Of a DNA stretch of 64,000 bases, positions 29,833 through 61,911 are shown piece by piece (the first letter of the stretch is position 1; every line of letters starts with the position of its first letter). The stretch is from Hydractinia symbiolongicarpus. Its lineage: Eukaryota; Cnidaria; Hydrozoa; Anthoathecata; Hydractiniidae. A program made the translations under genes and the position numbers. The stretch lies in NCBI RefSeq assembly GCF_029227915.1, contig NC_079883.1:21268001-21332000 (forward strand), read 5' to 3'. The notes beneath the pieces were generated by a model. The model saw only the letters and a program-made list of their open reading frames with translations. It was not told where the DNA came from and ran no database searches.

Positions 29833-31918
<2,086 letters not shown>

Positions 31919-32188
31919 AGAGATAGGAAAATGCCGATCCTAGGACAGCGATTAATAATGTTGTGCCACTCCACGTCAATTTATAGATCATCCACGTCAA
32001 ATCAACGATAGATGAGTCCATAAAATCCATGTGCACTTTACCACTTTACGTTAAATAAGCGGGCATGCTCTATAATATCCGTCCAAAACCCCCTCCGGAC
32101 GCGTCCCCCTGGCCCCCTCCCCGTCCCATGGGTCCCTACCCACCCTCATCTGTCGTGCCTTATAATTTATAGTGTTATGTGTGTCTAT
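31919..32188. repeat. Polinton left terminal inverted repeat
   Basis: 270 bp matching 47591-47860 in inverse orientation with one substitution (GTTAAATAA here, GTTGAATAA in the other copy). It contains a C-rich tract at 32088-32146 whose complement is G-rich. The last 14 bp of the polymerase frame lie inside the repeat. Confidence 0.97.
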
Positions 32189-35100: not shown

Positions 35101-35750
35101 GCCCATTTGAAACAGTCCTCGTCACCCTCGTTATGTGGGTTAATCACGGAGAATTTTCCACTGAAATTCTTGGGTAGCGGTAAGTAAGAACTACCTCTGG
35201 TTAATTTTAGTTTGTGAAAGTCCACATGCATATGTAGGATCCTTTCGATTGTGAATCCGCTGGCAGGTAGAGCAGGGTGTTCAATCTGCTCAATTATCTT
35301 ATTACACATACGATCAAAAACATCAGAAATGTCATCGTGAGCGTGTAGTATCTCCATATAACTATTGAAAGCTTTATCGACATATACACACGGGGCATCG
35401 GTCGAGCTGGTGTCCTCCCTTACCCACTTCATCCACAAGGTCGCCTGAGTCTTCAGCGACTTCTTTTGACCTAGCACGTCCCTCATTAGCCTCTTTACGA
35501 CGTGCTCGACCTTTTCGAGAAAGACCCTGACATTCTTCTCACCGTCAGGGTTTATCTTGAACCTTTTGTAGGACCCTACAAACACTTCTTCAATAGGAGT
35601 ATAAGGGTTTTCCTCCTCTTCCTCCTCTTTCACCTTTTCCTCTCCACTGCCCTTTTTATACAAACCCATGATCTTATCCTTCATGGTTTTGAAAGCTTTA
35701 CTCGCTTTCTCCTTAATAGCCCTAGGTACATGATTTACCAGTCTCTCCAT
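32175..35750 (-). CDS. polB: Protein-primed family B DNA polymerase (Polinton PolB)
   Basis: A frame of 1,191 residues that replicates the element by protein priming in related systems. Residues about 200-320 carry a conserved DCFKWAV (211-217) and HYIAVKNL (308-315) with unexplained Cys and His. A CxxC...H...C zinc-finger-like segment follows at 333-353. The 3'-5' exonuclease has motif I YADFEAF (386-392), motif II HNLSGYDAH (525-533) and motif III YLKTD (688-692). Between I and II sits CHIC...DHCHFTGKFRG (479-504), like the zinc-binding HNH site of endonuclease VII. Polymerase motif A is DANNLYGWAM (789-798), motif B KLMNNSVFGK (932-941), motif C YMDTDSF (1030-1036). All catalytic acids are present. 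The start ATG overlaps the end of the upstream frame by 16 nt. The tail runs 14 bp into the terminal repeat. Confidence 0.95.
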   Translation of the reverse strand: MERLVNHVPRAIKEKASKAFKTMKDKIMGLYKKGSGEEKVKEEEEEENPYTPIEEVFVGSYKRFKINPDGEKNVRVFLEKVEHVVKRLMRDVLGQKKSLKTQATLWMKWVREDTSSTDAPCVYVDKAFNSYMEILHAHDDISDVFDRMCNKIIEQIEHPALPASGFTIERILHMHVDFHKLKLTRGSSYLPLPKNFSGKFSVINPHNEGDEDCFKWAVLAALYHDKIDNHPERISILKKFEDKCNWDGLSFPMALNKIDLFERRNPDIAVHVLTKDDIEGVYMCRKSKHLDRDETVVLFLLCEGDKRHYIAVKNLSGVLSKVNSKHEHKEYYCLNCLSGFPSERKRDEHFEYCKNNDAVNIQLPKEGSTLTFTHGQYQLKAPFIMYADFEAFTKPEEIECGSSTEKVGKHIPTGFCCYSKYAHGEVLDPLKLYRGDDCVPRFVDHVVSEAKRLYNMFPQLGMQDLTDEELDGYENSTNCHICMREFGDDIKVRDHCHFTGKFRGSAHMECNLRYKVPNYIPVVFHNLSGYDAHLFIKELARKYGEGGMGVIAENKEKYISFSTDVKVGEYIDKNGETKDKKIKLRFIDSFRFMSRGLGSLADNLSDDQCKNLRKFFNDEQFNIMRRKGVYPYEYVDSFDRFNETRLPSKDDFYSKLNMNGISDADYAHAQKVWKDMKVENMGVYHDIYLKTDVLLLSDVFETFRETCLRNYKLDPAHFYTAPGLAWQACLKKTDVELDLLSDMDMLLFVEMGIRGGLCQAVHRHAKANNPYMGDMYNTSEDTTYLQYLDANNLYGWAMIQKMPTGGFEWDDSGKFTPELISELAVENGEKGYMLEVDVRYPHNLHDTHNDLPFMPERKVINGVEKLTPCLSDKRNYVIHIRALAQALNHGLVLDKVHRVLRFDQSAWLKPYIDFNTQLRTESKNDFEKDFFKLMNNSVFGKTMENQRRQKDIRLATNQKNYEKMVMKPNFRGAIRFSETLMGIEMSKIKIKMNKPIYLGPTILHLSKMVMYEFHHDYMRPKYGDDVKLCYMDTDSFVYHIKTDDFYKDIANDVSARFDTSGYDKEDGRPLPLGLNKKIIGLMKDELGGKVMTEFIALRAKTYAYKQLCGREGKRCKGVKKCVVRETIGFDDYKRCLFEGENIYRTQMTFRSIKHDVHTVKTNKLALNADDDKRIILEDGITTLARGHYRHT

Positions 35751-36067
35751 TCATTCAACTTGCTTTTCACAATAGGTCTGGTTTTAATCATTTCTTGCAG
35801 CTCAAACAAATCCATGTCTTGTTGGCTAGTACCGGACCTCGAGGGTCTCGGTGCCGGTACCGGTCTTGGCACTGATACGGGTCTAGTGGGTCTCGGTGGT
35901 GGTACCGGTCTGGTGGGTCTCGGCATGGGTACCGGTCTAACCAGTGCTGAAACGGTAGTTGGTCTCAATAATTCGATAATCTCGGCCTTTCTGAGCTTTG
36001 CGTAGCCACGTAGGCCGCGTTCTCTAGCGAGAGCTCTTAATTCGGAAACTGTATTTCTCGAAGTCAT
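35735..36067 (-). CDS. SAP/Rho-N-like, proline-rich ORF; probably the detached N terminus of PolB
   Basis: 110 residues. Residues 6-34 (TVSELRALARERGLRGYAKL then RKAEIIELL) have the helix-turn-helix pattern of SAP/Rho-N/HeH DNA-binding motifs. Residues 45-80 are a repeated PRPTRPVP-type linker. The C-terminal 20 residues end a few codons after the polymerase ATG in another frame; the two frames overlap by 16 nt in a -1 relation. The amino-acid pattern continues naturally from this frame into the polymerase frame, so I infer that they were one gene split by a small indel. Separate translation is the alternative. A promoter-like motif shared with the RING gene lies upstream. Confidence 0.75.
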   Translation of the reverse strand: MTSRNTVSELRALARERGLRGYAKLRKAEIIELLRPTTVSALVRPVPMPRPTRPVPPPRPTRPVSVPRPVPAPRPSRSGTSQQDMDLFELQEMIKTRPIVKSKLNEWRDW

Positions 36068-36076
36068 ATCGGGTTG

Positions 36077-36101
36077 TGATATACTATATGTGGACCTTTA
36101 A
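36077..36101 (-). promoter_or_regulatory. Shared upstream motif TTAAAG-N11-GTATATCA (SAP-like ORF/polB)
   Basis: On the minus strand TTAAAG (36101-36096), 11 nt, GTATATCA (36084-36077), then 9 nt to the ATG. The RING gene has exactly the same elements and spacing (37083-37059). Two occurrences with identical geometry suggest a promoter element, probably an early-type one. Confidence 0.6.
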
Positions 36102-36142
36102 TATGGTTTTATATAATCGTGAAACCAAAAAAAAAAGATTAA

Positions 36143-36166
36143 TTTGTTACTCGCGTGAGTAACAAA
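36143..36166 (-). terminator. 3' hairpin after the RING gene
   Basis: A perfect 10-bp stem, TTTGTTACTC with GAGTAACAAA, and a 4-nt loop. It begins about 20 nt after the stop codon of the RING gene. The stem is identical to the one after the 101-residue ORF (37211-37234). Read on the gene strand it is preceded by a T-run. Confidence 0.75.
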
Positions 36167-36185
36167 AAATCTGACACCAAACAAA

Positions 36186-37049
36186 TCAATTATATTGTTT
36201 AATGACAAGATCGATGGATGCGCGACATATGGGGCATTTATCCCCCTCATTCTCCAATTTATATGCACATGATAGACAGCAGCAAAAATGCCCTGTTCTA
36301 CCATGAACAATGGTTGCGGTCTTTTGTTTAGAAAGACAAATGATACATCTATCATCTTCATCAATGTCATCGTCAGCGTCGTCCTCATCCTCATCAATAT
36401 TTTGAAAATATCCCCGTACGCAAAATCGGCACCAACATTTGGGATAAGGGCCATAATCATAATCGGGATCTTCAAAATAATTATAATAATGGCCCTTATA
36501 TGATAAGTATTTTAGCAATGGGGTTATTAATCTGATGTTCACATCCTGTTTATAATCAATGGATCCGTACCGAGTCTCACCATAACCCTCGGTATGATTA
36601 CGGCTATAACCCATATCTTCAAACCATTGTTGGCTATAAAACCCACCCAATTTATGCCTATTCACATGTCTATTTGCAACAATAGGTACATATCCAGGAA
36701 GTACTTCGAACTGTGGTTCATTAGGAGCGTCAACAGATGTTGATACAATATACCGTGTCAAATGGTTTATAATCCGTCGATCCTCATCACCCAAGTCATT
36801 CTTCAGTACACTTTCACTTATTTCGAGGTGTTTGGCTATACCTCTTATGTTGTCGGGGACCAGTTCATTATTTATGATCTGGGTTTCGTATTCAACTTTT
36901 CTTACCCAATCACTTGGATATCCGGGTTCCGAGATATCTTCGCTTGGATATCCGGGCCCCGAGATATTTTCATCGTAGAAAAATCTTCGGAATAATATCC
37001 AGTGTATTTCGAGAGGTGGGGAGGGTTCGTTATCAACTGTCGATGTCAT
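36186..37049 (-). CDS. RING-finger protein with MDM2-type C2H2C4 RING
   Basis: 287 residues, ATG start. The C terminus (235-276) is a RING with ligand order C-x2-C-x10-H-x4-H-x3-C-x2-C-x10-C-x2-C. This is the unusual C2H2C4 arrangement of MDM2/MDMX, including IVHGRTGH and a short tail with a terminal-region Tyr (VIKQYN). An acidic run (about 217-233) precedes it. The N-terminal 200 residues are not recognisable; a short internal repeat (ISGPGYPSEDISEPGYPS) lies near residue 33. By family knowledge this RING binds E2 enzymes and acts as a ubiquitin ligase or dimerises with one. In a virus-like element it may redirect host protein turnover (inference). The promoter-like motif is shared with the polymerase unit, and a 3' hairpin follows. 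Confidence 0.85.
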   Translation of the reverse strand: MTSTVDNEPSPPLEIHWILFRRFFYDENISGPGYPSEDISEPGYPSDWVRKVEYETQIINNELVPDNIRGIAKHLEISESVLKNDLGDEDRRIINHLTRYIVSTSVDAPNEPQFEVLPGYVPIVANRHVNRHKLGGFYSQQWFEDMGYSRNHTEGYGETRYGSIDYKQDVNIRLITPLLKYLSYKGHYYNYFEDPDYDYGPYPKCWCRFCVRGYFQNIDEDEDDADDDIDEDDRCIICLSKQKTATIVHGRTGHFCCCLSCAYKLENEGDKCPICRASIDLVIKQYN

Positions 37050-37058
37050 GCTTGGCTA

Positions 37059-37083
37059 TGATATACGATTGTGCAATCTTTAA
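37059..37083 (-). promoter_or_regulatory. Shared upstream motif TTAAAG-N11-GTATATCA (RING gene)
   Basis: TTAAAG at 37083-37078 and GTATATCA at 37066-37059, 9 nt before the ATG. Spacing is identical to the copy at 36077-36101; the sequence in between differs, so only the two blocks are conserved. Confidence 0.6.
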
Positions 37084-37210
37084 CCCAATTTTTAAAAATC
37101 GTGCTGAAGGGTTGTGAGTGTCCTAGTTTGTGGTTGCCCCACCATGCTAAAATTGTAGTAAAACACGCTAAAACACACATACATCGATAGACCATGGGTA
37201 CCCACCAACA

Positions 37211-37234
37211 TTTGTTACTCGTCTGAGTAACAAA
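37211..37234 (-). terminator. 3' hairpin after the 101-residue ORF
   Basis: A 10-bp perfect stem TTTGTTACTC/GAGTAACAAA with loop GTCT (AGAC on the gene strand), 16 nt after the stop codon. Same stem as at 36143-36166. Confidence 0.75.
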
Positions 37235-37250
37235 AAAAAGGGTTGTTCAA

Positions 37251-37556
37251 TCACTTGGATCTTTTGTCGTTATAACGTTTTTGAGATTTTAGATATGCCT
37301 CCCTGTTTTTCGACCTCCACCTTGAACAGTATCCATACCATTCCCGTTTGGTATCCAGATCTATGGTGTAGGATGGGTCGAGATCATTCTTCTCAATCAC
37401 CTCAACCAGTTTAGCCTTTTTCATCCCGGTGATATACTTCACCCCACGGGATTTAGCAACCTCTCGCAACTCTCTCAGTTTCATCAATTTGTAGTCGGGT
37501 ACACCACCATCGGTGGTATCACAATGTAGATCAGTTTGAGTAGCCACGTCAGACAT
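37251..37556 (-). CDS. Small SAP/HeH-like Polinton protein
   Basis: 101 residues. Residues 25-56 (LMKLRELREVAKSRGVKYIT then GMKKAKLVEVIEKND) form the two-helix SAP/HeH pattern also seen in the ORF upstream of the polymerase; the two may be paralogous DNA-binding modules. The C terminus is basic and aromatic (REWYGYCSRWRSKNREAYLK), fitting nucleic-acid binding. A (TA)n run just upstream of the ATG may serve as a TATA region. Function unknown. Confidence 0.7.
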   Translation of the reverse strand: MSDVATQTDLHCDTTDGGVPDYKLMKLRELREVAKSRGVKYITGMKKAKLVEVIEKNDLDPSYTIDLDTKREWYGYCSRWRSKNREAYLKSQKRYNDKRSK

Positions 37557-37656
37557 CTTTATATATATATATATATAATCAGTAAAAATACATTAAAGCA
37601 CTTTTATCGTACTACATCATAACAAAAAGGAGATAAATAAAGGTGTGCATAAATAA

Positions 37657-38643
37657 AACAGGTCAAACTCTAAACTTCAAGAGACTTACTATCAACCTCA
37701 AAATTTATGGAAAGGACAAAAGGCTGTTCAGAATTTAAGAGGATTAGGTTTCAAGCCAAAGGAGATTAAGAAGTGGCTATCAAAACAAGCATTTTGGCAA
37801 GTACATTTACCCGCTCCAAAACATGTTGAAAGACCACATTATGAAGTTATCACCCCTAATGATTTACATCAATTCGATTTATTGTACATGCCCGGTGACA
37901 TACTGTATGGTAATTAATATAAGTACATTTTGTCGGGAATCGATGCTGCTTCCAGATACAAAGTAGCCCGACCTTTGAGGACTAAGAAAGCCAAAGAGGT
38001 TGCCGCTATGATTGAAGACATCTACAAGGCAGGACCATTAACTTATCCGAAAACTTTCCAATGTGATAACGGTTCAGAATTCAAAGCAGATGTGACAAAG
38101 CTGTTGGAGAAGCATAAGGTTGAAATTAAAAGGGCGACTACAAAATATAAGCATACGCACACAGCTTTTGTTGAGGCGTTGAACAAGATACTTGCGGAAA
38201 ATTTATTCAAAATACAAGATGCTCAAGAACTGAATGATTCGGAAAAGGTATCATCTACATGGGTTAAGCATCTGTATAAACTGATTGATAGGCTAAACGA
38301 TACAAAGACGCAGATGATTGGTATGAAACCAAAAGATGCTATTATAATGAAAGAGGTGCCTCTTGCTAAACGAGAGAATTATCCACCTGAAGTAGAATTA
38401 CCTAAAGATGGCCTGTATAGATATCTACTACAACCTGGTGAAGAGCATGATGATGGGCGGAGACGGGCAACCGATAGAATATGGTCGAAAAACACATATA
38501 GATTGCGTGAGGTAATAGCGCAACCCGGTAACCGTGTAATGTACTATGTTCAAGACGGACCCGGACGGGCTTTTGTAAAAGAGGAATTGATGTTAATACC
38601 TGAAGATACAGAATTACCTCCTGATTATGTGCAAGGTTGGTGA
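37657..38643 (+). pseudogene. Polinton rve-family integrase, interrupted by an in-frame stop
   Basis: The frame is open from 37657 to 38643 (about 329 codons) except for one TAA at 37915-37917. The catalytic triad is complete: Asp in QFDLLYMP (codon 37876-37878), Asp in QCDNGSEF, and Glu in FVEALNK with exactly 35 residues between the second and third acids. The stop lies between the first Asp and the strand YKYILSGIDAASRY. The conserved N-terminal part (LQETYY...WKGQKAVQNL) is present but no in-frame ATG is found; the frame starts just after a TAA. The C-terminal 60 residues look like the SH3/chromo-like tail. As it stands the gene cannot make a full integrase without readthrough. The next downstream start would lack the first catalytic Asp. 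Confidence 0.9.
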
Positions 38644-38669
38644 AAAAAGGGGGACGATACATAAAAAGT

Positions 38670-38694
38670 ATCTTTACCTGTATCTGGTAAAGAT
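38670..38694 (+). terminator. 3' hairpin after the integrase
   Basis: ATCTTTACC and GGTAAAGAT form a 9-bp perfect stem with the 7-nt loop TGTATCT, starting 27 nt after the stop. A near-identical hairpin follows the last plus-strand gene (47568-47592), differing at one stem and one loop position. Confidence 0.75.
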
Positions 38695-38843
38695 GATGCC
38701 GGGGATCACACAGGGCGGTCGGCAGATAGGGCCGCTATGGCTCGGGACGATTGCGCCACATAATGTCACAAACCGCCTTACTTTCAAATATTAATTTTTC
38801 AAATAGCACACGAAATATGCGAGCGGCGTACATGCACACATCA
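38695..38843. other. Intergenic region between convergent genes
   Basis: A GC-richer patch (GGGCGGTCGGC..., GCCGCTATGGCTCGGG) then AT-rich sequence. No hairpin comparable to the others was found for the minus-strand gene that ends at 38844. Confidence 0.5.
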
Positions 38844-39437
38844 CTAACCTTGTTCCTGATTTACCGTCTTTCTGAGGCTTTGAACCTCGGCCATTAGACT
38901 TTTTTCAAACTGGTTGCGCGTTTCGCTCTCCATCTTTCTGTCGGTTTTCGTAATTTTGTCCAGAGCTTCATAGTATATACCGCACAGGGTTTGAAATTCA
39001 ATGTGACTAATGTCATCATTATTCAGCGCCCGTGAGAAGGAGTTTTCAAACACGGCGATGGCAGACGTCGCAACATCATATAATTTCATGACTTTGTCCA
39101 GTTTGCTCTGATATCTTTTAATCAAGGCCGTGATAGAACCTGTGAAAATGGATCCCGACAGTGCTACGGCACCCAATCCGACAGAAACGGGTATCCCAAT
39201 GAGTGTAGCACCTGTTACCACCGAACCTATGCCGGAAGTGATGGTTAGGGCCGTGGCGCCGGCATTTAGAATCACAAGTCTGTGTAATTTCTTGTTGTAT
39301 TTCTCATACTTTGTGTTGAATTTGTTTTTTAATTTTATCAACTCCTCAAGTTGAGAGTTCACGGTATTTGTGTTAAACTTGTCTTGCTCGCTCGAATACT
39401 CAGGAGCCGTGGGTAGCTTCGGATAAATCTCTGCCAT
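38844..39437 (-). CDS. Two-pass membrane protein with flanking helices, paralogue A
   Basis: 197 residues. After a short N-terminal segment comes a charged helix beginning SQLEELIKLKNKF (about 29-41). Two adjacent hydrophobic stretches (about 55-75 and 80-100) carry many Gly, Ala, Ser and Thr, as in VILNAGATALTITSGIGSVV. A long helical C-terminal domain ends QSLRKTVNQEQG. The neighbour at 39462 has the same plan and the same opening motif, so they are tandem duplicates. The layout recalls SLATT-type membrane proteins; that comparison is structural only. A role in the virion or in host-membrane interaction is possible but unproven. The gap to the next gene is 24 nt. Confidence 0.75.
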   Translation of the reverse strand: MAEIYPKLPTAPEYSSEQDKFNTNTVNSQLEELIKLKNKFNTKYEKYNKKLHRLVILNAGATALTITSGIGSVVTGATLIGIPVSVGLGAVALSGSIFTGSITALIKRYQSKLDKVMKLYDVATSAIAVFENSFSRALNNDDISHIEFQTLCGIYYEALDKITKTDRKMESETRNQFEKSLMAEVQSLRKTVNQEQG

Positions 39438-39461
39438 TGGTTACTACAAAGAAAAAAAACT

Positions 39462-39929
39462 TTACTCTAAATAACCTATATCTAGTTTATCCAGATCCTT
39501 GAGAGTTCTGTGATATGTATCACACAAACTTTCAAAATCGGCTCTACTGATGTACAGGCTGTTTGGTAGCGTTTTATCGAACACATCGATGGCATTTTGT
39601 ACAACGCGATATGAGGCTCTGACTTTGTTAAGTTTCTCCCGATATATCTTAACATATTCGATGGTAATCGCACATGAAGCAGAGATTAATAGACACATAC
39701 CCGAACCCCAAACTGCGCGGCCTTTTCTAATAATGGCCGCTGCGGTCGCTATCGAGCTGGTAACGGCCACGATTCCGGACATACCCTCCATAAGCATCAA
39801 TATAATCAGAGATCCGCCGTATTTGTCTATCCTGTCATAGAACTTATGTCGTAATTTCACCAGCTCCTCAAGTTGGGAATTGGATATATCTGTTTTAAAC
39901 ATTTCTCCGGGACTAGTATGCTCGGCCAT
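39462..39929 (-). CDS. Two-pass membrane protein with flanking helices, paralogue B
   Basis: 155 residues with SNSQLEELVKLRHKF near the start, two hydrophobic segments (about 40-65 and 74-92), and a helical tail with ISRADFESLCDTYHRTL. This aligns with ISHIEFQTLCGIYYEAL in paralogue A. It lacks paralogue A's last 40 or so residues. The upstream sequences of both genes share a motif like TTATTTAGAG followed by AGTTTTTT. It is divergent from the plus-strand gene at 39973, with 43 bp between starts. Confidence 0.75.
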   Translation of the reverse strand: MAEHTSPGEMFKTDISNSQLEELVKLRHKFYDRIDKYGGSLIILMLMEGMSGIVAVTSSIATAAAIIRKGRAVWGSGMCLLISASCAITIEYVKIYREKLNKVRASYRVVQNAIDVFDKTLPNSLYISRADFESLCDTYHRTLKDLDKLDIGYLE

Positions 39930-39972
39930 TTCTATTATCTTAAGAAAAAACTATCCTCTAAATAATAAAATA
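39930..39972. promoter_or_regulatory. Compact divergent promoter region
   Basis: Only 43 bp separate the ATG of the minus-strand membrane protein from that of the plus-strand coiled-coil gene. The stretch holds AAGAAAAAACTATCCTCTAA and AATAATAAAATA, so both transcripts must start within it or inside the opposite gene. Confidence 0.5.
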
Positions 39973-41226
39973 ATGGCGGACATTGATATTGATCCGTTTG
40001 GTGAACATGGTCAAACCGACGAGGGTGCCGATGAAACCACGCCCCTGGTACCGAAGGAACGCACACGGGTACAGATACACACACCCGATGAAAAGGAGAC
40101 ATCATTCGGTGGAGGCTCCTCTCAACGCGCTAGAGTTACTAGTGAACGGGTTAAATCACTCTATGAGGTGCTACTAACTAAATATCCAAACGAGGACCCG
40201 AGTGTGATACATACCGATCTGTTTGAGATTCGTGGTGGTGAATTATACTACAAGGGTGATAACAGACCGCTGACACATGGTGGATCTCTAAGGTCTACCG
40301 GTACCATTGCAGATCTACTGGGCAAGAAAAGGCTGCGCAGTTTGGGGTTCGATATACCGAAAGGTAGTATAACCCCCCGACAGGCCGCCGGACTAAACAA
40401 AATAGAAGAGAGACTACCGTCACCTGATAAAATAGAAACGGCGACCGATATAGAATTAGAAACAATATCTGGAGATGTGGTGAACAGTGTGGAGGACCTG
40501 GTATCGCTGGTCGATGATGGTACACTGAGAGGTGAATATCCCGCGGGTGATATTCGTGGATTGGATAGTTCCGTACAAAAAATTCGGGGGAGTCTCCAAC
40601 TCGCGACCGCTAAAAAGGTAGATATCGAACACAACATCAAGAAGGAAGAAATGAAGTTGAAGGAGTTGGAACATCCGTCGTACACAGATGAACAGAGGGA
40701 GAAGGTGGCCAAGGAGTTGGAAAAGCTAAACGATATGTTGGAGGCTAACCAGGATGGTATCAATATCCTCAAGGGTAAACTTAACAGTCAAATAAAAAGC
40801 ATCAAGGAGACAATCGCCAAGGTACTTAGCAAAGATACAACATTGGGTGAAAAGATACGAACTCTATTCCGTGAGCAGGGTATCACCATCGTCAGTGTAC
40901 TAACGGCATTTGGTATGGTTATCGGCCTTTTGGTTAAAACTTTGACACCCGGAGGTGGGGGGTCATCCACCGGTAATACAAAAAATCATGAAAAAACTGA
41001 GGGTGGTGCGAGGGAATGGATAAAGAACAAGCTGAGTGCGCTAGGATCTCTCCTGGGTAGATTAGCCAGTGCCGCAGCCGCACCACTACCTGGTATAATT
41101 GGATCCATCGTATCGTGGATCCTCAATAGAGCAAAGGAGGCCGTTGGTTGGTTGAGTCAAAACCTTTGGGCTTTGATAGTTGGAATCGGAGGTCTGATAT
41201 ACACCTACATGGTTACAAAGCGTTAG
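39973..41226 (+). CDS. Coiled-coil protein with C-terminal membrane segments, conserved Polinton type
   Basis: 417 residues from ATG 39973; an in-frame extension reaches 39880 but overlaps the divergent gene, so I prefer the later ATG. The N-terminal 90 residues are acidic and polar. Residues about 90-180 contain a globular part with LLGKKRLRSLGFD. A coiled coil spans about 230-280 (EEMKLKELEH...KELEKLNDMLEANQDG). A first hydrophobic segment (GITIVSVLTAFGMVIGLLVK, near 310-330) is followed by a Gly/Ser linker. The C terminus has Ala/Leu-rich amphipathic helices and a last membrane-like helix (LWALIVGIGGLIYTYMV). I recall similar uncharacterised proteins in cnidarian genomes. The layout would suit a virion-membrane or membrane-active capsid component. 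Enzyme motifs are absent. Confidence 0.85.
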   Translation: MADIDIDPFGEHGQTDEGADETTPLVPKERTRVQIHTPDEKETSFGGGSSQRARVTSERVKSLYEVLLTKYPNEDPSVIHTDLFEIRGGELYYKGDNRPLTHGGSLRSTGTIADLLGKKRLRSLGFDIPKGSITPRQAAGLNKIEERLPSPDKIETATDIELETISGDVVNSVEDLVSLVDDGTLRGEYPAGDIRGLDSSVQKIRGSLQLATAKKVDIEHNIKKEEMKLKELEHPSYTDEQREKVAKELEKLNDMLEANQDGINILKGKLNSQIKSIKETIAKVLSKDTTLGEKIRTLFREQGITIVSVLTAFGMVIGLLVKTLTPGGGGSSTGNTKNHEKTEGGAREWIKNKLSALGSLLGRLASAAAAPLPGIIGSIVSWILNRAKEAVGWLSQNLWALIVGIGGLIYTYMVTKR

Positions 41227-41240
41227 TGGAATCTGGAATA

Positions 41241-41265
41241 TATGTTACATGTGTCATGTAACATA
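41241..41265. terminator. Shared hairpin between convergent genes
   Basis: TATGTTACATG and CATGTAACATA form an 11-bp perfect stem with a 3-nt loop. It lies 15 nt after the plus-strand stop (41226) and 31 nt after the minus-strand stop (41296), so it can end transcripts from both sides. The core GTTAC..GTAAC matches the other hairpins. Confidence 0.75.
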
Positions 41266-41286
41266 GTAGTAGTAGTAGTAGTAGTA
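41265..41286. repeat. (AGT)n microsatellite
   Basis: Seven AGT units directly after the shared hairpin. Confidence 0.85.
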
Positions 41287-41295
41287 CCACGCGTA

Positions 41296-41721
41296 CTATT
41301 TTTCGAAATACCACACAGCGCCCCCGACACCGATCATGCTTAGTGCGATAAATGCCAATTCCCGTTCATGTTGGCCATTGCTGGGTGTATAAAAGTCGCT
41401 CAATACAGGTTCGCGTGGAATATCCGTGAGAGTTGACCCTCCAAACACTTTTCTATATTCACGCATCGCATCATCCAGCTCTGTGAATTTCCCCTCAGCC
41501 TTCTTCTCAAGTCTGAGCTGCTTATTGATAAAGTCCACCCTCTCTTGTCTTTTACGTTGCCATATAACCTGAGCCTTTTGCAGCTGTTCTATGGCCAGAT
41601 CATGCCGCTTCCGTTCCTTATCTATCCTATCCTTGGATAAACTTGAAAAGAGGTAGCTTGATCCGGTGAAAGCCAAAGCGTTCGCGAAGGCACCTCCCAA
41701 CATCATTGCAATTGAAGCCAT
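41296..41721 (-). CDS. Conserved Polinton membrane protein with central coiled coil
   Basis: 141 residues. It opens with the hydrophobic segment MASIAMMLGGAFANALAFTG. A long charged helix follows (about 30-90: DRIDKERKRHDLAIEQLQKA and on), then a conserved-looking SDFYTPSNGQHERELAF and a last membrane helix (IALSMIGVGGAVWYF). Membrane segments at both ends with a helical middle suggest a virion-membrane or scaffold role. It is the last gene of the minus-strand run that starts at the penton, and it precedes the shared hairpin. Function unknown. Confidence 0.8.
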   Translation of the reverse strand: MASIAMMLGGAFANALAFTGSSYLFSSLSKDRIDKERKRHDLAIEQLQKAQVIWQRKRQERVDFINKQLRLEKKAEGKFTELDDAMREYRKVFGGSTLTDIPREPVLSDFYTPSNGQHERELAFIALSMIGVGGAVWYFEK

Positions 41722-41755
41722 GTTTCATATACTACTACAGTATATTTTAGTGGCG

Positions 41756-41887
41756 TTATTTTAATACGATAGCTTCGGAGTCTATGACATCCGTATCCAC
41801 CTCCGTGTATTCCACCTTGGGTAAAATACTCTCAACTTTCTTACGTCGATATAAAACCCAGACCAACCATTCCAGTATTCGCAACAT
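41756..41887 (-). CDS. Small 43-residue protein, translationally overlapped with the upstream gene
   Basis: A short frame starting MLRILEWLVWVLYRRKKVES, with a hydrophobic N terminus stopped by basic residues and an acidic C-terminal half. Its ATG overlaps the stop of the preceding gene by one base (TAATG). That geometry and the tight packing argue that it is real despite its size. Probably a tiny membrane-anchored virion or assembly protein; not recognised. Confidence 0.6.
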   Translation of the reverse strand: MLRILEWLVWVLYRRKKVESILPKVEYTEVDTDVIDSEAIVLK

Positions 41888-42114
41888 TATATATTTATAG
41901 TTTCAGGTATAATTTTTTGCTTAACTAGATATTCTCTTGTCATCTCACTTGCGGCGACTATGGCTACAAGCTTTCCGGTATCTTCCAGGTCAAACTTCTG
42001 AATTGAGGGTGGTGTCATTTTTAATACATTTTTCCCGAGAATTGAATAGCCCACAGCGAAAACGCATACGACCGATGCTTTATAAATATCGTTGACTATA
42101 CTTTCCTTATCCAT
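41887..42114 (-). CDS. Small two-helix membrane protein, conserved Polinton type
   Basis: 75 residues: a first hydrophobic helix (VVCVFAVGYSILGKNVLK, 14-31), the loop KMTPPSIQKFDLEDTG, a second weaker hydrophobic helix (KLVAIVAASEMTREYLVKQ), and the end IIPETINI. The stop codon overlaps the start of the next gene as TAATG, which allows termination-reinitiation. I recall similar small proteins next to capsid genes in cnidarian Polintons. Function unknown. Confidence 0.75.
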   Translation of the reverse strand: MDKESIVNDIYKASVVCVFAVGYSILGKNVLKMTPPSIQKFDLEDTGKLVAIVAASEMTREYLVKQKIIPETINI

Positions 42115-42158
42115 GTCTTATATTTACTTCAAGATTATAGTATCGTGATATTATCCCT

Positions 42159-42554
42159 TTATTCCATTTCAAGCTTACTTATTCTCATAGTTTTTTTATT
42201 ACCTGAGTTAATTGGTGGGGTACCCTTCACCTTAATATTTTTGTCCTTATTTTTATAGACGAAAAAAGCACCAATTAAGACAAGTACTATCACCCCACCA
42301 CCACCCATTATTGTGTAGTTCACCCCACCGTGTTTAGGGCCATCTGTCACAGAATCCTCAATGACAATATCCTTAGGATCCTCCAACTGTGTCTGAGGTG
42401 CTGAGTGTATCTGAGGTGCCGACTGTACCTCCGTCTGTGCCATGAGCAATCTTTTATATTCTTCCCTAGTTTTACGATTGAATTCAGCCAGCCTCTTACC
42501 AGCCTCAACCTTTTTAGGGTTCTTCGTTGTCACCTGAACTGGAGTATCCGACAT
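42159..42554 (-). CDS. Single-pass membrane protein, conserved Polinton type
   Basis: 131 residues. A basic N terminus (NPKKVEAGKRLAEFNRKTRE, 12-31) leads to a Gln/Ser/Pro-rich linker. One membrane helix (GGGGVIVLVLIGAFFVYKNK, about 83-102) is followed by a basic tail. The start lies inside the end of the upstream gene (41-nt overlap). Probably part of the virion or assembly module. Confidence 0.75.
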   Translation of the reverse strand: MSDTPVQVTTKNPKKVEAGKRLAEFNRKTREEYKRLLMAQTEVQSAPQIHSAPQTQLEDPKDIVIEDSVTDGPKHGGVNYTIMGGGGVIVLVLIGAFFVYKNKDKNIKVKGTPPINSGNKKTMRISKLEME

Positions 42555-43119
42555 CTTTAGTATCCGTATCGATATTGTTTAAATTTTTTCCCGCGATATA
42601 ATGCCTACCTGTTATTAAACCTACACTGATTGGTGATAGTAGTGATCCGAACTTATAATATAGATCACATGTGAACCTTTGGAGTGCCGAGTTTAGGAAT
42701 GGATCATTCTCCAGGTCATCACTCAGAGCTTTTTGATTTTTTATACCGAGAGCTGTACAGGCACCCAGGGAGTACATGTGGATTATTGACTGTCCCAAAG
42801 ACTTTACCATTTGACCAGACAGTTTAGCCTCGTATATGGTGAACAGTTTATCCACCTCATCATTCTTGAGCTTTTGAATTTGCTCCTCCGTATACATCTT
42901 ACCCAGATATAGCTTGCTATTTCCCGTCAGCACACACTCGAGCAATTTCTGTCTCTTCCCATCATCTTGGTCCTCGATAAAAATTAGGTTGTCAATTGCG
43001 GTCTCAGCCATTTTAAATAGCGATAGGTATTTTTTAATACAAAAAAGACAGAAACTAACCAATACCAGCAATAGCACTACAGATATCACCAGTAATATGA
43101 AATTTATATATTCTATCAT
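42514..43119 (-). CDS. Conserved Polinton virion-module protein with N-terminal anchor
   Basis: 201 residues from the ATG at 43119. Residues 1-36 form a membrane anchor (FILLVISVVLLLVLVSFCLF). An internal Met at 43011 (MAETAIDNLIFIEDQDDG) could be an alternative start, giving a soluble protein of 165 residues. I recall relatives that start there. The later part is mostly helical (EEQIQKLKNDEVDKLF, GQMVKSLGQSIIHMYSLGAC) and has no known catalytic motif. The longer start fits the tight gene packing, since it leaves a 30-nt leader after the hairpin at 43150. It overlaps the next gene by 41 nt. Confidence 0.75.
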   Translation of the reverse strand: MIEYINFILLVISVVLLLVLVSFCLFCIKKYLSLFKMAETAIDNLIFIEDQDDGKRQKLLECVLTGNSKLYLGKMYTEEQIQKLKNDEVDKLFTIYEAKLSGQMVKSLGQSIIHMYSLGACTALGIKNQKALSDDLENDPFLNSALQRFTCDLYYKFGSLLSPISVGLITGRHYIAGKNLNNIDTDTKDVGYSSSGDNEEP

Positions 43120-43149
43120 TATAGGATAGTACTGTAGTTTTCCTATAGA

Positions 43150-43174
43150 TTTGTTACAAGGGTCTTGTAACAAA
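43150..43174 (-). terminator. 3' hairpin after the ATPase
   Basis: TTTGTTACAAG and CTTGTAACAAA form an 11-bp perfect stem with a 3-nt loop, 12 nt after the ATPase stop. It marks the end of the penton-capsid-ATPase cluster. On the gene strand it follows a T-run. Confidence 0.8.
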
Positions 43175-43185
43175 AAACTTCCAAT

Positions 43186-43782
43186 CTAGCAAATCACGTG
43201 GGTTCTTGGATGTTCCATCCTCATGACTAAATGTGTATATTTGCCATCTTTTAGCCTTTCCTTAACCTTCTGTATCTCTGATGATTCAATAACATCATTC
43301 TCCTCGTGTATAGTTGCGAGATCATGTCTGTCCTTTGGATACCACACATATAACATTTTTGCCTGCCTTCGTAAGTTCTTCGGTATCGCGGTGTATGATT
43401 GTGTGAGTAGCCACATGGTGTGGTTTCGATGCCGACCGCTGATGGCCAGCTCCAGCAATGGTTGCCTCTTTTTGTCCAGTTTCTCATCCGCGATGATATC
43501 GTCGATCAGGAGTAATGTTTTGTATCCTGCGAATAAATCCGTCATCTTTTGGATCCATTCATACAACAAGCCCATGGGCTCAATTAGAATAAAATATCTA
43601 TCACTCCAGAACCATTTTCGACACATATATGTCTTGTTCCATCTTAATGTTGGACATATAATCACAATGAAATCGAAGTGATCAAAGTATTCACTCTCTA
43701 GTAGCGTTACTACGCGTTTGGATTTTCCGCAGCCGGTTGGACCGACGAATAGTGCCGTGTGAGGATCTTTCATGTAGTCCAT
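43186..43782 (-). CDS. Genome-packaging ATPase (FtsK/HerA, A32-like)
   Basis: 198 residues from the ATG at 43782, one base after the capsid stop (TAAGATG). The frame continues upstream to 43809, but that part overlaps the capsid gene. Walker A is VGPTGCGKS near residue 14-22. Walker B is LLLIDDI near residue 90, followed by GRHRNHTMWLLTQSY, the arginine/sensor-like segment with the Gln of this superfamily. In relatives this enzyme pumps DNA into the capsid. Its position directly after the major capsid gene is the conserved virus-like order. It is a compact member of the family. Confidence 0.92.
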   Translation of the reverse strand: MDYMKDPHTALFVGPTGCGKSKRVVTLLESEYFDHFDFIVIICPTLRWNKTYMCRKWFWSDRYFILIEPMGLLYEWIQKMTDLFAGYKTLLLIDDIIADEKLDKKRQPLLELAISGRHRNHTMWLLTQSYTAIPKNLRRQAKMLYVWYPKDRHDLATIHEENDVIESSEIQKVKERLKDGKYTHLVMRMEHPRTHVIC

Positions 43783-43783
43783 C

Positions 43784-45103
43784 TTAATATAGTACATCCA
43801 TAATTTCACCGTTTTGAATATTTAATTGAGCATCCATTATTAGATATATGTAAGCGTTTAAGGATCCCGCTGCCTCGGCCGTCTTTTCAACTTGCAGTGT
43901 GATGCCCTCGCTCGCATTTTCAATCCGTCGGCCGGTCCCGTGCAGTGAGTTTTCATCTATGGTTCTGAAATCCAACCATAGAGCATATTTCGTGGTTAGG
44001 TAGTCCGCGACCTTCACATCATGTAATTGCAAATGTTTTTGTATTTCACCTGCATTACCATCCCTTTGCTTACCCTCCGCAAAATACTTGCAAATTTCAC
44101 CATAATGCTCAAACGGTTGCATCCCCTGAGCGAAAAGTTGGTTGGGCTTACCCTCAACTATGGCGGATACCTTTTTGATCTTAGGATTGTAGAACCTACC
44201 TGTATCTCGTTTGTAAGCTTTCTCTTCCTCAAACAGAACCAATATACCCTTCAGGGACTTGCATGGTGTATTGAATGACCAATTCCACGTTGTGTCCGAC
44301 TTATCCACCCTAATTTGTCTATGTCTCAAGAATCTGTCATAGAGCACGGCCATGTTTTCGTATTCATTTGAGATGAATCTGGCGAGTGTGGGTTGTGTCA
44401 CAATCTCATATTCGAGAGATATGTTGGAGATTTTGTATTTAGCATCCGGTGCCGGTGCCGAGGCCGAACCGGAAGGTTTGGTTGGAGTTGATAGTACTAC
44501 CCTGTCATAATTGTTGAATGTTATCTCATAACACAGCCTATTACCTAATCCGGCCTGATAATAAGGAATCGTGCTATCCAACATTTCAAAATCTAGTGGT
44601 ATGGTGAACTTGTTTTTGTATGCATCATAGATTGCTTTGTCCGCTACCTCCGATGCGTCTTTATCCGCGGCTCCAACTCTCAGTTTCATACAGTTTTCTG
44701 TACACCCTTCATCAAAGATGATACCTTGTCTTATTGCATTTCTTTTTTCAGACTTGGTTAACCATAAATCTCTGTAGCACCCGAAAAGATCAAAGTCATC
44801 AATGCTCAGAATCTCGGTACCCTCGAACTTGATAGCTAGCTTTTTAACAATTGCCCTCCCTATGTTAGAGACCAATGTTCTCTTCGTGTCAGCTTTTGAC
44901 TCGAGATCAATGTCGAAACTTATTTTCGAAGTACCCGGAACAATGACATCATCGTTACCTAAATTAGGGAACCTAATCAGGAGTAACTGGTTCTGATCAA
45001 TCTCACTTGGGTTGTGAGTGACAATTACTTTTTGATGCGTTCCTTTTACGCCATGTGCGGTTCTAAGTGAACGCTCTGGGTTTAACTTTTTCCCGTATTC
45101 CAT
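43784..45103 (-). CDS. Polinton major capsid protein (predicted double jelly roll)
   Basis: 439 residues, mostly predicted beta strands, with signature-like stretches LLLIRFPNLGNDDVIVPGTS (about 40-60), IVKKLAIKFEGTEIL, SDTTWNWSFNTPCKSLKGIL and LHGTGRRIENASEGITLQVE. Size, strand density and the immediate downstream ATPase fit the capsid protein of Polintons and relatives. Homologues I recall from cnidarian genomes are usually left unnamed. A Ser/Pro/Ala linker (TKPSGSASAPAPDAKYK, about 205-222) lies where the two jelly rolls would join. The frame is intact. No separate hairpin lies between it and the ATPase, so the two may share a transcript. Confidence 0.85.
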   Translation of the reverse strand: MEYGKKLNPERSLRTAHGVKGTHQKVIVTHNPSEIDQNQLLLIRFPNLGNDDVIVPGTSKISFDIDLESKADTKRTLVSNIGRAIVKKLAIKFEGTEILSIDDFDLFGCYRDLWLTKSEKRNAIRQGIIFDEGCTENCMKLRVGAADKDASEVADKAIYDAYKNKFTIPLDFEMLDSTIPYYQAGLGNRLCYEITFNNYDRVVLSTPTKPSGSASAPAPDAKYKISNISLEYEIVTQPTLARFISNEYENMAVLYDRFLRHRQIRVDKSDTTWNWSFNTPCKSLKGILVLFEEEKAYKRDTGRFYNPKIKKVSAIVEGKPNQLFAQGMQPFEHYGEICKYFAEGKQRDGNAGEIQKHLQLHDVKVADYLTTKYALWLDFRTIDENSLHGTGRRIENASEGITLQVEKTAEAAGSLNAYIYLIMDAQLNIQNGEIMDVLY

Positions 45104-45158
45104 GCTATTCCATATTACTTTTATTTTATTTTACTTTAATTCGGTTAATGCTACGGTA

Positions 45159-45722
45159 TCATCTGTCCGCCGTATCTCTTATGTGTAGGGTAACTGTTTT
45201 CTTCATACCACCCCATAACACCTTACCATCCTGACCTGTGACTCTCATGGTAAGTGATTGAAGTAAACCTTTCTTTAGTTTCTTATATTGCGGATTTTTC
45301 GGTTCAATATATGTAAAATCACCACCATACTCGGATATATGATATGTCATCAGGTTGTTGCTATATTCACCATCATTAAGATTTAATGAATTATCCAATT
45401 CATTAAGATTAAAATGTAGTTCCGTTATACCCCCTAGATTGAATATTTTACTCAACTTAGAGTTTCTAGCTAGTTGTGTTGATTTTACATCACCTCTCAC
45501 GATTGAATTCAACTCCCTCCCCGTGTAGTGCTGACCCTGTGGTAACCTAACCGTGGTAACTCCATCAGCCAAGGGTATATCTATTAGAGCTGCAACCACA
45601 TATGTGACATTGTCTGAAAACTTCTCCACGATCGCAACCTCCTTTGTACCATGTGAGTTGTCTATCGGTTGATACAAATAGATTTTCTTCTCGCTATTTA
45701 CGTCCTTTATTGTGATATACAT
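45159..45722 (-). CDS. Probable minor capsid (penton) protein, single jelly roll
   Basis: 187 residues, beta-rich, with LPQGQHYTGRELNSIVRGDV (about 80-99) in the centre and a C-terminal strand pattern KKTVTLHIRDTADR. Size and location just upstream of the major capsid gene match the penton of this virus group. The assignment rests on position and strand pattern more than on a unique motif. It shares a 38-bp divergent promoter region with the plus-strand gene at 45761. Confidence 0.7.
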   Translation of the reverse strand: MYITIKDVNSEKKIYLYQPIDNSHGTKEVAIVEKFSDNVTYVVAALIDIPLADGVTTVRLPQGQHYTGRELNSIVRGDVKSTQLARNSKLSKIFNLGGITELHFNLNELDNSLNLNDGEYSNNLMTYHISEYGGDFTYIEPKNPQYKKLKKGLLQSLTMRVTGQDGKVLWGGMKKTVTLHIRDTADR

Positions 45723-45760
45723 TATTATATTAGAGATTGTGAATATATTTAAATCAAAGA
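45723..45760. promoter_or_regulatory. Divergent promoter region, penton and 401-residue gene
   Basis: Only 38 bp separate the two start codons. It contains ATTATTATATTAGAGA toward the penton side and AATATATTTAAATCAAAGA toward the plus-strand side, with a TATTTAAAT box. Both promoters must be very compact. Confidence 0.5.
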
Positions 45761-46966
45761 ATGGATGACATTTTCAGATATAACTCGAATGCGACATATA
45801 AACCAAATGTAGGGCGGGATCTTCAAATATTGAGCGCTAGGGATCTGTACAAACAGGCTATTATTGTGTCTGAAAGTGGCTCTTTCCCCGCTTCCTTTCC
45901 TAATATTTTTACCAATTATGAACTTAGTCAGAACGCGCAACGTATGAGAATTTGGAATGAGCAACCTTTTAGATTATGGCAAACCCAGCTAAATTTCGCC
46001 ACTTGGTGCGCTTCAAGTGCCTGTGGGGTAAGTTCCGAACACCTTAAGGATGGTAGATCTATGGTCAGGTCGATATATCGTTTTCATGTGTATTATCACA
46101 TTAGACGAAACATTAAGCGCCTGCAGACACCTCTACCCTTTGAGAATAGTTTTAATCAATATGATAATCCCTATTCAAATGAGGAATTTCTAAAAATCTG
46201 TGACGAGTATGATGTTGATTCCAACCCCATGAAATACAGAGGTCAGTACTTTTTCAGTTCATATCAAAAAAGACGTAAAGATTATCCAACTCCCGGGTTG
46301 AGTTATTTCACCAACGACTCCATGACGCGGTGGATTGTGGAAAAATCCGATGGATTTACAAAAACGGGCCTTGTTAAGATCTCTAGCAGTGTTAGGGCCT
46401 ATGCCTATCTAATTCTTAGTTCTCAGGCATCAGCACGCTCCTCCATCCTTGGTAATGATTCAAGTGCTCTGACCGCCCAAAGAGTTTTTATGAATAACCT
46501 TGAAGACATTGTTAACCGTAGGGTTGATATTCAGGAGGACATTAAACGTTATCAGGATACTCTAAACTACGCTTCAAGTAAGGTTGATTATTCGGTTGGA
46601 CAAGGTATTTATATGTTACCTAGTGACATGAATCTCAGAATTAAGACTGGTGTGGTGGGTTACAACAACAAGATTTTGATATCAGGTGAAGATCTGACCA
46701 TTGGTATCAATCGAAAGGTCAATGTTACCGAAAAAACAACCGAATCACATAAAAGGATAACTAAAAAGAAGCAGGTAACACCCGATCATCCTGATATCCA
46801 TCCTGATCATCCTGATAAACACATTACCGTACACCACGTGGATACTACAGATAAACAAATTACTGCACCTTACCACAAAGATACTCCTCCTACACACGAA
46901 GATGAGAAGATCGCTCTTGTGATTGTTATGACAACAGGTTATTTCATATGGTATTTGTTTAGATAA
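45761..46966 (+). CDS. Conserved Polinton protein with C-terminal membrane anchor
   Basis: 401 residues. The N-terminal half carries ITNYELSQ-like and IWNEQPFRLWQTQLNFATW segments (FTNYELSQNAQRMRIWNEQP, about 50-70) that I recall as conserved among cnidarian Polinton proteins, then YRFHVYYHIRRNIKRLQTPL. The middle is helical (EDIVNRRVDIQEDIKRYQDT). Residues about 330-380 are a His/Asp/Pro/Thr-rich spacer (HPDIHPDHPDKH). A final hydrophobic helix (ALVIVMTTGYFIWYLF) ends the protein. It is a likely structural or membrane-linked virion protein; no enzyme motif. The His-rich spacer could bind metal. Confidence 0.8.
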   Translation: MDDIFRYNSNATYKPNVGRDLQILSARDLYKQAIIVSESGSFPASFPNIFTNYELSQNAQRMRIWNEQPFRLWQTQLNFATWCASSACGVSSEHLKDGRSMVRSIYRFHVYYHIRRNIKRLQTPLPFENSFNQYDNPYSNEEFLKICDEYDVDSNPMKYRGQYFFSSYQKRRKDYPTPGLSYFTNDSMTRWIVEKSDGFTKTGLVKISSSVRAYAYLILSSQASARSSILGNDSSALTAQRVFMNNLEDIVNRRVDIQEDIKRYQDTLNYASSKVDYSVGQGIYMLPSDMNLRIKTGVVGYNNKILISGEDLTIGINRKVNVTEKTTESHKRITKKKQVTPDHPDIHPDHPDKHITVHHVDTTDKQITAPYHKDTPPTHEDEKIALVIVMTTGYFIWYLFR

Positions 46967-46984
46967 AGAATGACGTCAATTAAA

Positions 46985-47133
46985 TGTCAATCAAACCAGA
47001 ATAACAATAGAGAAACAATGCATTCCTTACATACCAAATATCCTTAGCAACGGCTACTTTCGTTTTGACTTTTTTCTTATGTAAACAACTTTCTGGTATG
47101 TAAAATCCTATTGTTATAAGCGTTTGATTGACA
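46985..47133. repeat. 149-bp long inverted repeat between genes
   Basis: Three blocks pair in order: TGTCAATCAAAC (46985) with GTTTGATTGACA (47122), ATAACAATAG (47001) with CTATTGTTAT (47108), and TTACATACCA (47027) with TGGTATGTAA (47094). Spacing is 4 nt on both sides between the outer two blocks. It could be a small palindromic transposon or a structured RNA 3' end for the gene that stops at 46966. No target duplication was seen. Confidence 0.8.
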
Positions 47134-47212
47134 GATGGTAGATAACAAAAAACTGCTTTCCGATAGAATCTATAAAGTGGTATAAAGAGATGTAATCGTG
47201 AATATAAACACA

Positions 47213-47548
47213 ATGGCTTTTCCAACAGTTGAAGAATTTGAACAAAACATAGAACAAGTTACTCCGATCATAAAGTGGAGAGAGCTGCCTAAAAACGATA
47301 TTTACCTTGTTAAATATGTGAAAGAGATGGAAATATCAAGACCTGGTGCTCTTTCTGAAAAATCTATGTATGCGGAGGTTCAAGATAGAATTGGAAATAA
47401 ATATAAGACATGGTTGCCCGCAAGACTTTGTGATGAATTGAAGGATTATGGTTGGAAGGGTGATGCCTTTGTCAGATCAAATGGTCTCAAACAATCTCAA
47501 AAGAATCATCAAAATCGATTCTTCAGTTATGACATTATGTGGCGCTAA
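47213..47548 (+). CDS. Small conserved Polinton protein, possibly OB-fold-like
   Basis: 111 residues from ATG 47213 (MAFPTVEEFEQNIEQ). The centre alternates hydrophobic residues as in a small beta barrel (IYLVKYVKEMEI, AEVQDRIGNKYKTWLPARL), and the end reads RFFSYDIMWR. The pattern of a barrel with a Trp-Leu-Pro-x-Arg turn suggests a nucleic-acid-binding OB-like fold, but this is weak. TATA-like TATAAAG boxes lie about 30-40 nt upstream. A hairpin matching the integrase hairpin follows the stop. Confidence 0.7.
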   Translation: MAFPTVEEFEQNIEQVTPIIKWRELPKNDIYLVKYVKEMEISRPGALSEKSMYAEVQDRIGNKYKTWLPARLCDELKDYGWKGDAFVRSNGLKQSQKNHQNRFFSYDIMWR

Positions 47549-47567
47549 ACCTTGCAACATTGCAAGC

Positions 47568-47592
47568 ATCTTTACTTGTTTCTGGTAAAGAT
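47568..47592 (+). terminator. 3' hairpin after the last plus-strand gene
   Basis: ATCTTTAC and GTAAAGAT (8 bp plus one T-G pair) with loop TGTTTCT, nearly identical to the hairpin after the integrase (38670-38694). A second small hairpin, CTTGCAA-CA-TTGCAAG, lies at 47551-47566 immediately after the stop. The last two bases enter the terminal repeat. Confidence 0.75.
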
Positions 47593-47860
47593 AGACACAC
47601 ATAACACTATAAATTATAAGGCACGACAGATGAGGGTGGGTAGGGACCCATGGGACGGGGAGGGGGCCAGGGGGACGCGTCCGGAGGGGGTTTTGGACGG
47701 ATATTATAGAGCATGCCCGCTTATTCAACGTAAAGTGGTAAAGTGCACATGGATTTTATGGACTCATCTATCGTTGATTTGACGTGGATGATCTATAAAT
47801 TGACGTGGAGTGGCACAACATTATTAATCGCTGTCCTAGGATCGGCATTTTCCTATCTCT
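47591..47860. repeat. Polinton right terminal inverted repeat
   Basis: 270 bp, reverse complement of 31919-32188 with one mismatch. It contains a G-rich tract at 47633-47691 with many G3-G5 runs. A 37-codon frame (47749 onward) runs outward through the repeat and meets a TAG formed with the first two flanking bases. Confidence 0.97.
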
Positions 47861-61878: not shown

Positions 61879-61911
61879 TAGTCGACACCACCGGGACGGT
61901 GGTGTCGACTA
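61879..61911. repeat. 14-bp perfect hairpin
   Basis: TAGTCGACACCACC and GGTGGTGTCGACTA enclose the loop GGGAC. It is strikingly GC-rich for this region. It lies within a 62-codon frame that is not otherwise supported. Confidence 0.85.

Follow-up and report, generated by a model that had tools for sequence, protein, structure and literature searches.

Conserved hairpins after stop codons suggest a structural message-end signal in a Polinton-like element of Hydractinia symbiolongicarpus

What is the function of the short hairpins that follow the stop codons of several genes in a virus-like transposon? This question is raised by a 64,000-nucleotide stretch of the Hydractinia symbiolongicarpus genome (contig C9, NC_079883.1, positions 21,268,001 to 21,332,000; hereafter the window, in whose coordinates all positions are given). 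Contig C9, one of 76 in this 481-Mb genome, carries here a Polinton-like element of 15.94 kb between perfect 270-bp inverted repeats. A first-pass annotation had listed six hairpins in the element and proposed that they may be RNA 3'-end signals. Because the same small hairpin recurs unchanged after several genes while its surroundings vary, our analysis suggests that a many-copy virus-like transposon uses a folded structure to mark where its messages end. We put the probability at about 0.6 that the hairpins are RNA 3'-end signals within the 3' untranslated ends of messages, akin to the hairpin rule of giant viruses.

Six hairpins with a shared core

All six hairpins are present where the first-pass annotation placed them, and their positions and structures can be read directly. 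On the minus strand, they follow the RING-finger gene (36143-36166, 19 nt past the stop), the SAP/Rho_N gene SAPb (37211-37234, 16 nt) and the packaging-type ATPase gene (43150-43174, 11 nt). On the plus strand, they follow the putative rve integrase (38670-38694, 26 nt) and g111, the last plus-strand gene (47568-47592, 19 nt), where the hairpin meets the right inverted repeat at its inner boundary. The remaining hairpin (41241-41265) lies between the convergent genes g417 and g141, 14 nt from the stop of the former and 30 nt from that of the latter. The measured distances of 11-30 nt agree with the 12-31 nt given originally. Five of the six stems are perfect (9-11 bp), while the one at 47568 consists of eight perfect pairs and a T.G pair, and its arm reads ATCTTTACT; the ATCTTTACC reported for it was wrong. 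The description of the hairpins as marking the ends of gene groups holds in part, but the RING and ATPase hairpins sit within runs of same-strand genes.

We defined a stem as perfect, with at least 8 bp, at least two G-C pairs and a loop of 3-9, within 80 nt of the stop. Seven of the 16 gene ends have such a stem, against 0.085 expected from dinucleotide shuffles. Across the whole element, there are six stems of at least 9 bp (one of them, at 43969, in coding sequence), against 0.33 expected in shuffles. All six hairpins share the core TTAC-N8/9-GTAA, in the form N4-TTAC-N8/9-GTAA-N4, a new feature that the first-pass annotation had missed. No further TTAC-Nk-GTAA with k from 2 to 22 occurs elsewhere in the element, and the 48 kb of flanks contain four with k of 8 or 9. 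The outer four bases of the stems are TTTG/CAAA in three hairpins, ATCT/AGAT in two and TATG/CATA in one. Among the six, 6 of 11 pairs are altered on both sides, inner bases included. The covariation score is 0.455. Shuffles give 0.157, with none of 500 reaching the observed value, and slid controls do not exceed 0.167.

Copies of the element and constancy of the stem

The genome holds many copies of this element. An ATPase search returned 1756 first-look candidates, of which we scored 150, with 89-100% identity. The pattern TTTGTTAC-N8-GTAACAAA has 394 genome sites versus 3 for its reversed control, TTTGTTACTC-N3-12-GAGTAACAAA has 137 and ATCTTTACNTGTNTCNNGTAAAGAT has 259, with zero sites for the reversed form of either. 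The 50 listed sites of TTTGTTAC-N8-GTAACAAA are all on contigs C1 and C2. A scored ATPase is found within 10 kb of 45 of them, although only about 0.6% of those contigs falls within that distance; the remaining five have no scored ATPase nearby.

We took a census of gene ends in 20 of the 150 copies, hand-picked at 95-99% ATPase identity, together with the window slice. We counted every ORF or fragment of 60 aa or more that was not cut by an edge, so that the denominators include fragments of broken genes, and scored a core hairpin if it lay no more than 60 nt past the stop. The SAP/RING cluster was built by single linkage and includes two or more ORFs whose N-terminus is that of PolB. A hairpin follows the ATPase in 21/21 cases, g417 in 19/24, g141 in 17/21, the integrase in 17/24, SAP/RING cluster ORFs in 39/52 and one single gene in 1/1, with gaps of 10-30 nt from stop to hairpin. 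None was found after g201 (0/22), g131 (0/20), g155/g197 (0/30), g75 (0/20; a 75-aa ORF added for the comparison of copies to the element's set of 16 ORFs, which occupy both strands) or 11 further small ORF clusters (0/31). The expectation in the first-pass annotation that related copies keep stems at the same gene ends was borne out in copies from the same genome. Separately, one copy (L180) has its polymerase ORF on the strand opposite to the window arrangement, and part of the element seems to be inverted there.

The region 3' of the ATPase gene was compared in 51 regions (the 30 best matches, the 20 copies and the window), some of which are the same insertion; 36 sequences are distinct. 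In 35 of these, the 22 stem positions show one substitution (in L199), while loop position 2 varies in 17/35 and position 3 in 13/35. The loop has a mean minor-state frequency of 0.306, the flanks have 0.071-0.232 and the stem has 0.025, where every cell but one comes from a single deletion. Within the ATPase gene, the value is 0.068 at third, 0.004 at first and 0.002 at second codon positions. The stem is kept while the loop and flanks vary among copies.

RNA-level and DNA-level readings

The direction of wobble pairs bears on whether the hairpins act in RNA or in DNA. At one varying pair in 48 hairpins of the SAP/RING type, read on the strand of the minus-strand genes, we observed U-A 24 times, U.G 19, C-G three, C.A once and U.U once, so the wobble is on the coding strand in 19 of 20 cases (U.G 19 versus C.A 1). 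A minus-strand stop lies within 60 nt of 43 of these 48 hairpins and of 18 of the 19 with U.G. In the integrase/g111 type (259 sites), read in loop direction as a proxy for gene direction, U.G occurs 85 times and C.A five times. Given that the genes of the SAP/RING type are on the minus strand and the integrase and g111 genes on the plus strand, the wobble tracks transcription. In 27 distinct hairpins, 262 of 270 pairs are formed, compared with a shuffle mean of 215.6 and maximum of 229, with 4 of the 10 pairs per hairpin preset by the search pattern. Where the stem changes, the partner base changes too or the pair passes through a coding-strand G.U, which is the outcome that the check for compensatory changes proposed by the first-pass annotation looked for. 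The coding-strand wobble is good, though not final, evidence for the RNA level. Since the copies retain the hairpins and their stems change in this manner, the structure likely acts in RNA near the 3' end.

We infer that the hairpins act on the RNA 3' end as follows. When transcribed, TTAC-N8/9-GTAA with its flanks would fold into a stem of about 8-13 bp, 10-30 nt past the stop. This stem would set or protect the 3' end of the message, through termination, cleavage or end protection, and the end would form without the host word AAUAAA. AATAAA or ATTAAA is found within 110 nt of 3 of the 16 gene ends and at none between stop and hairpin, other signal variants not having been searched. Pfam scans of the element's 16 ORFs turned up no RNA polymerase, poly(A) polymerase or RNase III, so the reader of the stem would have to come from the host or from a helper virus.

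Several observations weigh against this reading. Nine of the 16 gene ends in the window have no stem of at least 8 bp within 80 nt, namely those of PolB, SAPa, g197, g155, g131, g201, MCP, a putative minor capsid gene and g401. A close copy, L160, which is the 36th distinct sequence of the ATPase 3' region, has lost the whole ATPase hairpin. The wobble counts include many sites of common ancestry, and the 27 distinct hairpins give only six G.U versus two A.C. Two other element families (L200 and L204) have no hairpin after the ATPase. Finally, in L191 the loop of the integrase hairpin is reverse-complemented while the direction of the integrase gene is kept. That hairpin is located at 2948 of the oriented copy, and it may be that the hairpin itself flips.

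The gene content of the SAP/RING zone varies from copy to copy, and we clustered 80 nt on each side of the 48 hairpins with loose and strict cuts. Left clusters (gene ends) are joined to more than one downstream sequence in 2/7 cases with the loose cut and 4/9 with the strict cut, and a downstream sequence is joined to more than one gene end in 2/4 and 3/6 cases, respectively. The hairpins of this zone may be read as doubling as joints for the exchange of gene cassettes, via shared sequence, and a dedicated second function in cassette exchange is possible. In the SAP/RING zone of L181, L185 and L192, we also noted ORFs with unlike N-termini and a near-identical C-terminal RING, as if domains had been swapped between cassettes.

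The hairpins could instead be inverted repeats acting in DNA, where a dimeric protein, perhaps one of the SAP-domain proteins of the element, would bind TTAC-N8/9-GTAA at gene borders in a regulatory or insulating role. The constant core with its spacing of 8-9, the invariance of TTAC and GTAA in 27 distinct hairpins (the core being part of the search pattern) and the presence of two SAP/Rho_N genes in the element are as expected for such sites. However, pairing extends to the bases between the half-sites, where changes likewise come in pairs, and coding-strand wobble is seen for genes of either strand, so we consider this reading unlikely. Integron attC sites are recombination sites of gene cassettes, and the hairpins could primarily be recombination sites of a similar kind, with the position after the stop as a by-product. 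The differing gene content of the SAP/RING zone and the joining of one gene end to different downstream sequences at the hairpin both fit. Against this, the ATPase and convergent hairpins stand at fixed genes in nearly every copy with equally constant stems, homology of shared sequence could by itself explain the exchange, and recombination does not predict wobble on the coding strand. A primary role in recombination therefore seems to us quite unlikely.

An RNA hairpin with another task, in mRNA stability, localization, translation or stop-codon readthrough, would leave the same RNA-level evidence as a 3'-end signal, and we think such a task rather improbable. For readthrough, the frame stays open beyond the stem at the ends of ATPase, g417 and g111, but at 4/7 gene ends (RING, SAPb, integrase and g141) a new in-frame stop precedes the stem or falls inside it, and we rejected readthrough as the common task on these grounds. 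The copies are young, as the ATPase identities among the 150 scored indicate, which would favor neutral inheritance from a recent ancestor. Yet the stem varies less than third codon positions, loop and flanks, and chance is contradicted by the excess of stems over shuffles, by the 394 sites versus 3 for the reversed pattern and by the hairpins of unrelated sequence in another family (L202, below). Either chance or neutral inheritance is thus extremely improbable.

Returning to hairpins as 3'-end signals, the likeness to giant viruses and virophages lies in an A-T-rich palindrome soon past the stop of several genes, with A-T-rich intergenic gaps. Passages of the papers on the hairpin rule (PMC4402537, PMC8557863, PMC5413956, PMC6723459) report the rule of the Mimiviridae for Pithovirus, Marseilleviridae and the virophage Sputnik, with stems of at least 13 bp in mimiviruses and at least 10 bp in Pithovirus. 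According to portions of PMC4402537, an RNase III-like enzyme of mimiviruses cuts such hairpins, poly(A) is then added, and the stem is not conserved in sequence. In Marseilleviridae, palindromes occur preferentially at gene ends, and one end that was mapped falls within a hairpin (an excerpt of PMC5413956), 16 genes of Sputnik end with the mimivirus signal (a section of PMC6723459), and a passage of PMC8557863 states that no such hairpin signal was found in medusavirus. The element resembles Sputnik as a small hairpin-bearing genome. Unlike in the giant viruses, its stem sequence is conserved in the family and often shorter (8-13 bp), more than half of its genes lack the hairpin, and the scanned ORFs include no RNase III or poly(A) polymerase. 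Another family, that of L202, has hairpins of other sequences.

The linear yeast plasmids pGKL have stem-loops at a median of 26 nt past the stop that set RNA 3' ends, and passages of PMC6211774 describe these together with their own RNA polymerase, U-rich 3' ends and the lack of a shared motif. Our element is likewise linear and putatively protein-primed, with a stem-loop past the stop, but it has a shared core, mostly no U-tract directly after the stem and no RNA polymerase that we could find by Pfam. The coding-strand 3' flanks of the hairpins begin with AAATG, AAATT, AAATC, GATGC or TAGAC, and a T-run some nucleotides downstream of the stem is found in the RING slot only. We rejected an intrinsic terminator of the bacterial or pGKL type, given the lack of a U-tract directly after the stem. 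The stem-loop of replication-dependent histone mRNAs is a structure-based 3' end in animal nuclei, as we propose for the element, but we rejected it as a candidate since it has no Rfam match at E up to 1 in window positions 31000-48500, where the four Rfam matches listed are to microRNA models, far below their cut-offs. The early termination signal of vaccinia is UUUUUNU. A T-run leads into the stem in a similar way (TTTTTTGTTAC) after RING, SAPb and ATPase, but it is missing at the integrase, convergent and g111 hairpins. As 14 of the 48 hairpins of the SAP/RING type have only TTT, we rejected UUUUUNU as a necessary part. The vaccinia signal is also named in a passage of PMC6211774.

Other element families and the genes of the element

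A wider reading would give the Polinton family its own structural message-end code with a non-canonical reader, which could be an RNase III-type nuclease borrowed from the host or the enzymes of a helper virus in a virophage-like partnership, with the hairpins also serving as cassette joints. We regard this combination as doubtful. Such a partnership in an animal is conceivable because the viral late transcription factor Pox_VLTF3 is matched at 23 places in the genome (e.g. C5:14117055-14117525) and nowhere in 14 control genomes. Three of the 23 lie at a distance of 2.5-5 kb from sites of a variant packaging ATPase. Other virus-derived elements with their own transcription factor seem to be integrated in this genome.

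To our knowledge, little is known about the transcription of Polinton genes. A search of titles and abstract openings, with most subscription journals outside its reach, found no description of a hairpin 3'-end signal in Polintons. In the common view, also given in a passage of PMC6723459, these elements lie close to the root of many eukaryotic DNA viruses. If the hairpins are indeed 3'-end signals, the hairpin principle would extend beyond giant viruses, virophages and yeast plasmids, and the 3' hairpin would provide a gene-end marker for annotating Polintons. Here it is conserved in an element in whose 16 ORFs Pfam detects neither an RNA polymerase nor a nuclease, which makes host versus helper machinery for such elements a directly testable question.

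A variant ATPase motif occurs at 20 genome sites, and we read five short stretches (L200-L204). In L202, TCAGTTGTA-N9-TACAACTGA starts 8 nt past the ATPase end (shuffle P 0.0005), and the next ORF stops 2 nt before CTATTTCA-N5-TGAAATAG (shuffle P 0.005). Each of the two stops seen in L202 is thus followed by a hairpin, and both hairpins are unrelated in sequence to the TTAC-N8/9-GTAA type. Hairpins are not general across the other element families of this genome, as one of three judgeable families has them. The ATPase site of L204 has a VLTF3 match at a distance of 3.6 kb, and a site with the L200 motif has another at 2.5 kb, so these two families may be another kind of element.

A tblastn search of the window proteins against 139 loci gave no match except L016 and L017, and scans of viral contigs with the capsid protein, the ATPase and a capsid motif gave no useful relative besides L017, a distant Polinton-like element. 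Scans of genome contigs were fruitless, one of them giving at least 119 stretches under bacterial and archaeal names. Between convergent genes of L017, at 6541-6839, seven stem-loops stand in a row with a period of about 41 nt, and two of the seven are repeated. Different, imperfect hairpins form a second row at 8617-8870, after small ORFs. Because this layout differs, we did not count the rows as support.

Polintons (Mavericks) are about 15-20 kb in size. The element falls in this size class and has long terminal inverted repeats (31919..32188 and 47591..47860) and a packaging-type ATPase (43186..43797, minus strand; Pox_A32 1.4e-07, above cut-off). A gene for a putative protein-primed DNA polymerase B (PolB, 1191 aa; 32175..35750, minus) is overlapped by the SAP/Rho_N gene SAPa (35735..36067, minus; Rho_N 4.7e-07). 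They are followed by the RING-finger gene (36186..37049, minus; zf-C3HC4_3 7.8e-11) and SAPb (101 aa; 37251..37556, minus; Rho_N 1.5e-07). The 3' part of the putative integrase (211 aa; 38008..38643, plus) matches rve at E 0.013, under the curated cut-off, and its frame is interrupted by an in-frame stop upstream. The ORFs g417 (39973..41226, plus), g141 (41296..41721, minus) and g111 (47213..47548, plus) have no assigned function. The putative major capsid protein (MCP, 439 aa; 43784..45103, minus) matches Capsid_N at E 0.0082, below cut-off, and has 1809 homologues; no PDB relative was found, and its AlphaFold model (mean pLDDT 40) is too poor for a fold search. PolB shares 39% identity with an ORF of L017, which itself carries rve and Pox_A32 genes. 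PolB gave no Pfam, NCBIfam or PDB polymerase match, no relative of solved structure and no match in phage records. We take PolB to be a putative polymerase from its motifs, and both names, PolB and MCP, are putative, resting on gene order, relatives and such motifs, without a curated match. On the processing enzymes of the hairpin rule, the PF03296 profile had zero matches in the whole genome, although its controls were equally silent.

Between g401 and g111, a long imperfect hairpin (46985-47133) folds at -40.4 kcal/mol over 186 nt (z -4.2, none of 200 shuffles equally stable) and might be an insertion or encode a small RNA. The flanks of the element hold C2H2 zinc-finger and leucine-rich-repeat genes. 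Outside the element, the right flank has perfect hairpins of 26 bp (61305-61359) and 15 bp (61879-61911), and at 4990-5056 the inverted repeat ATCTTAAGAT occurs in three overlapping copies with a 19-bp period.

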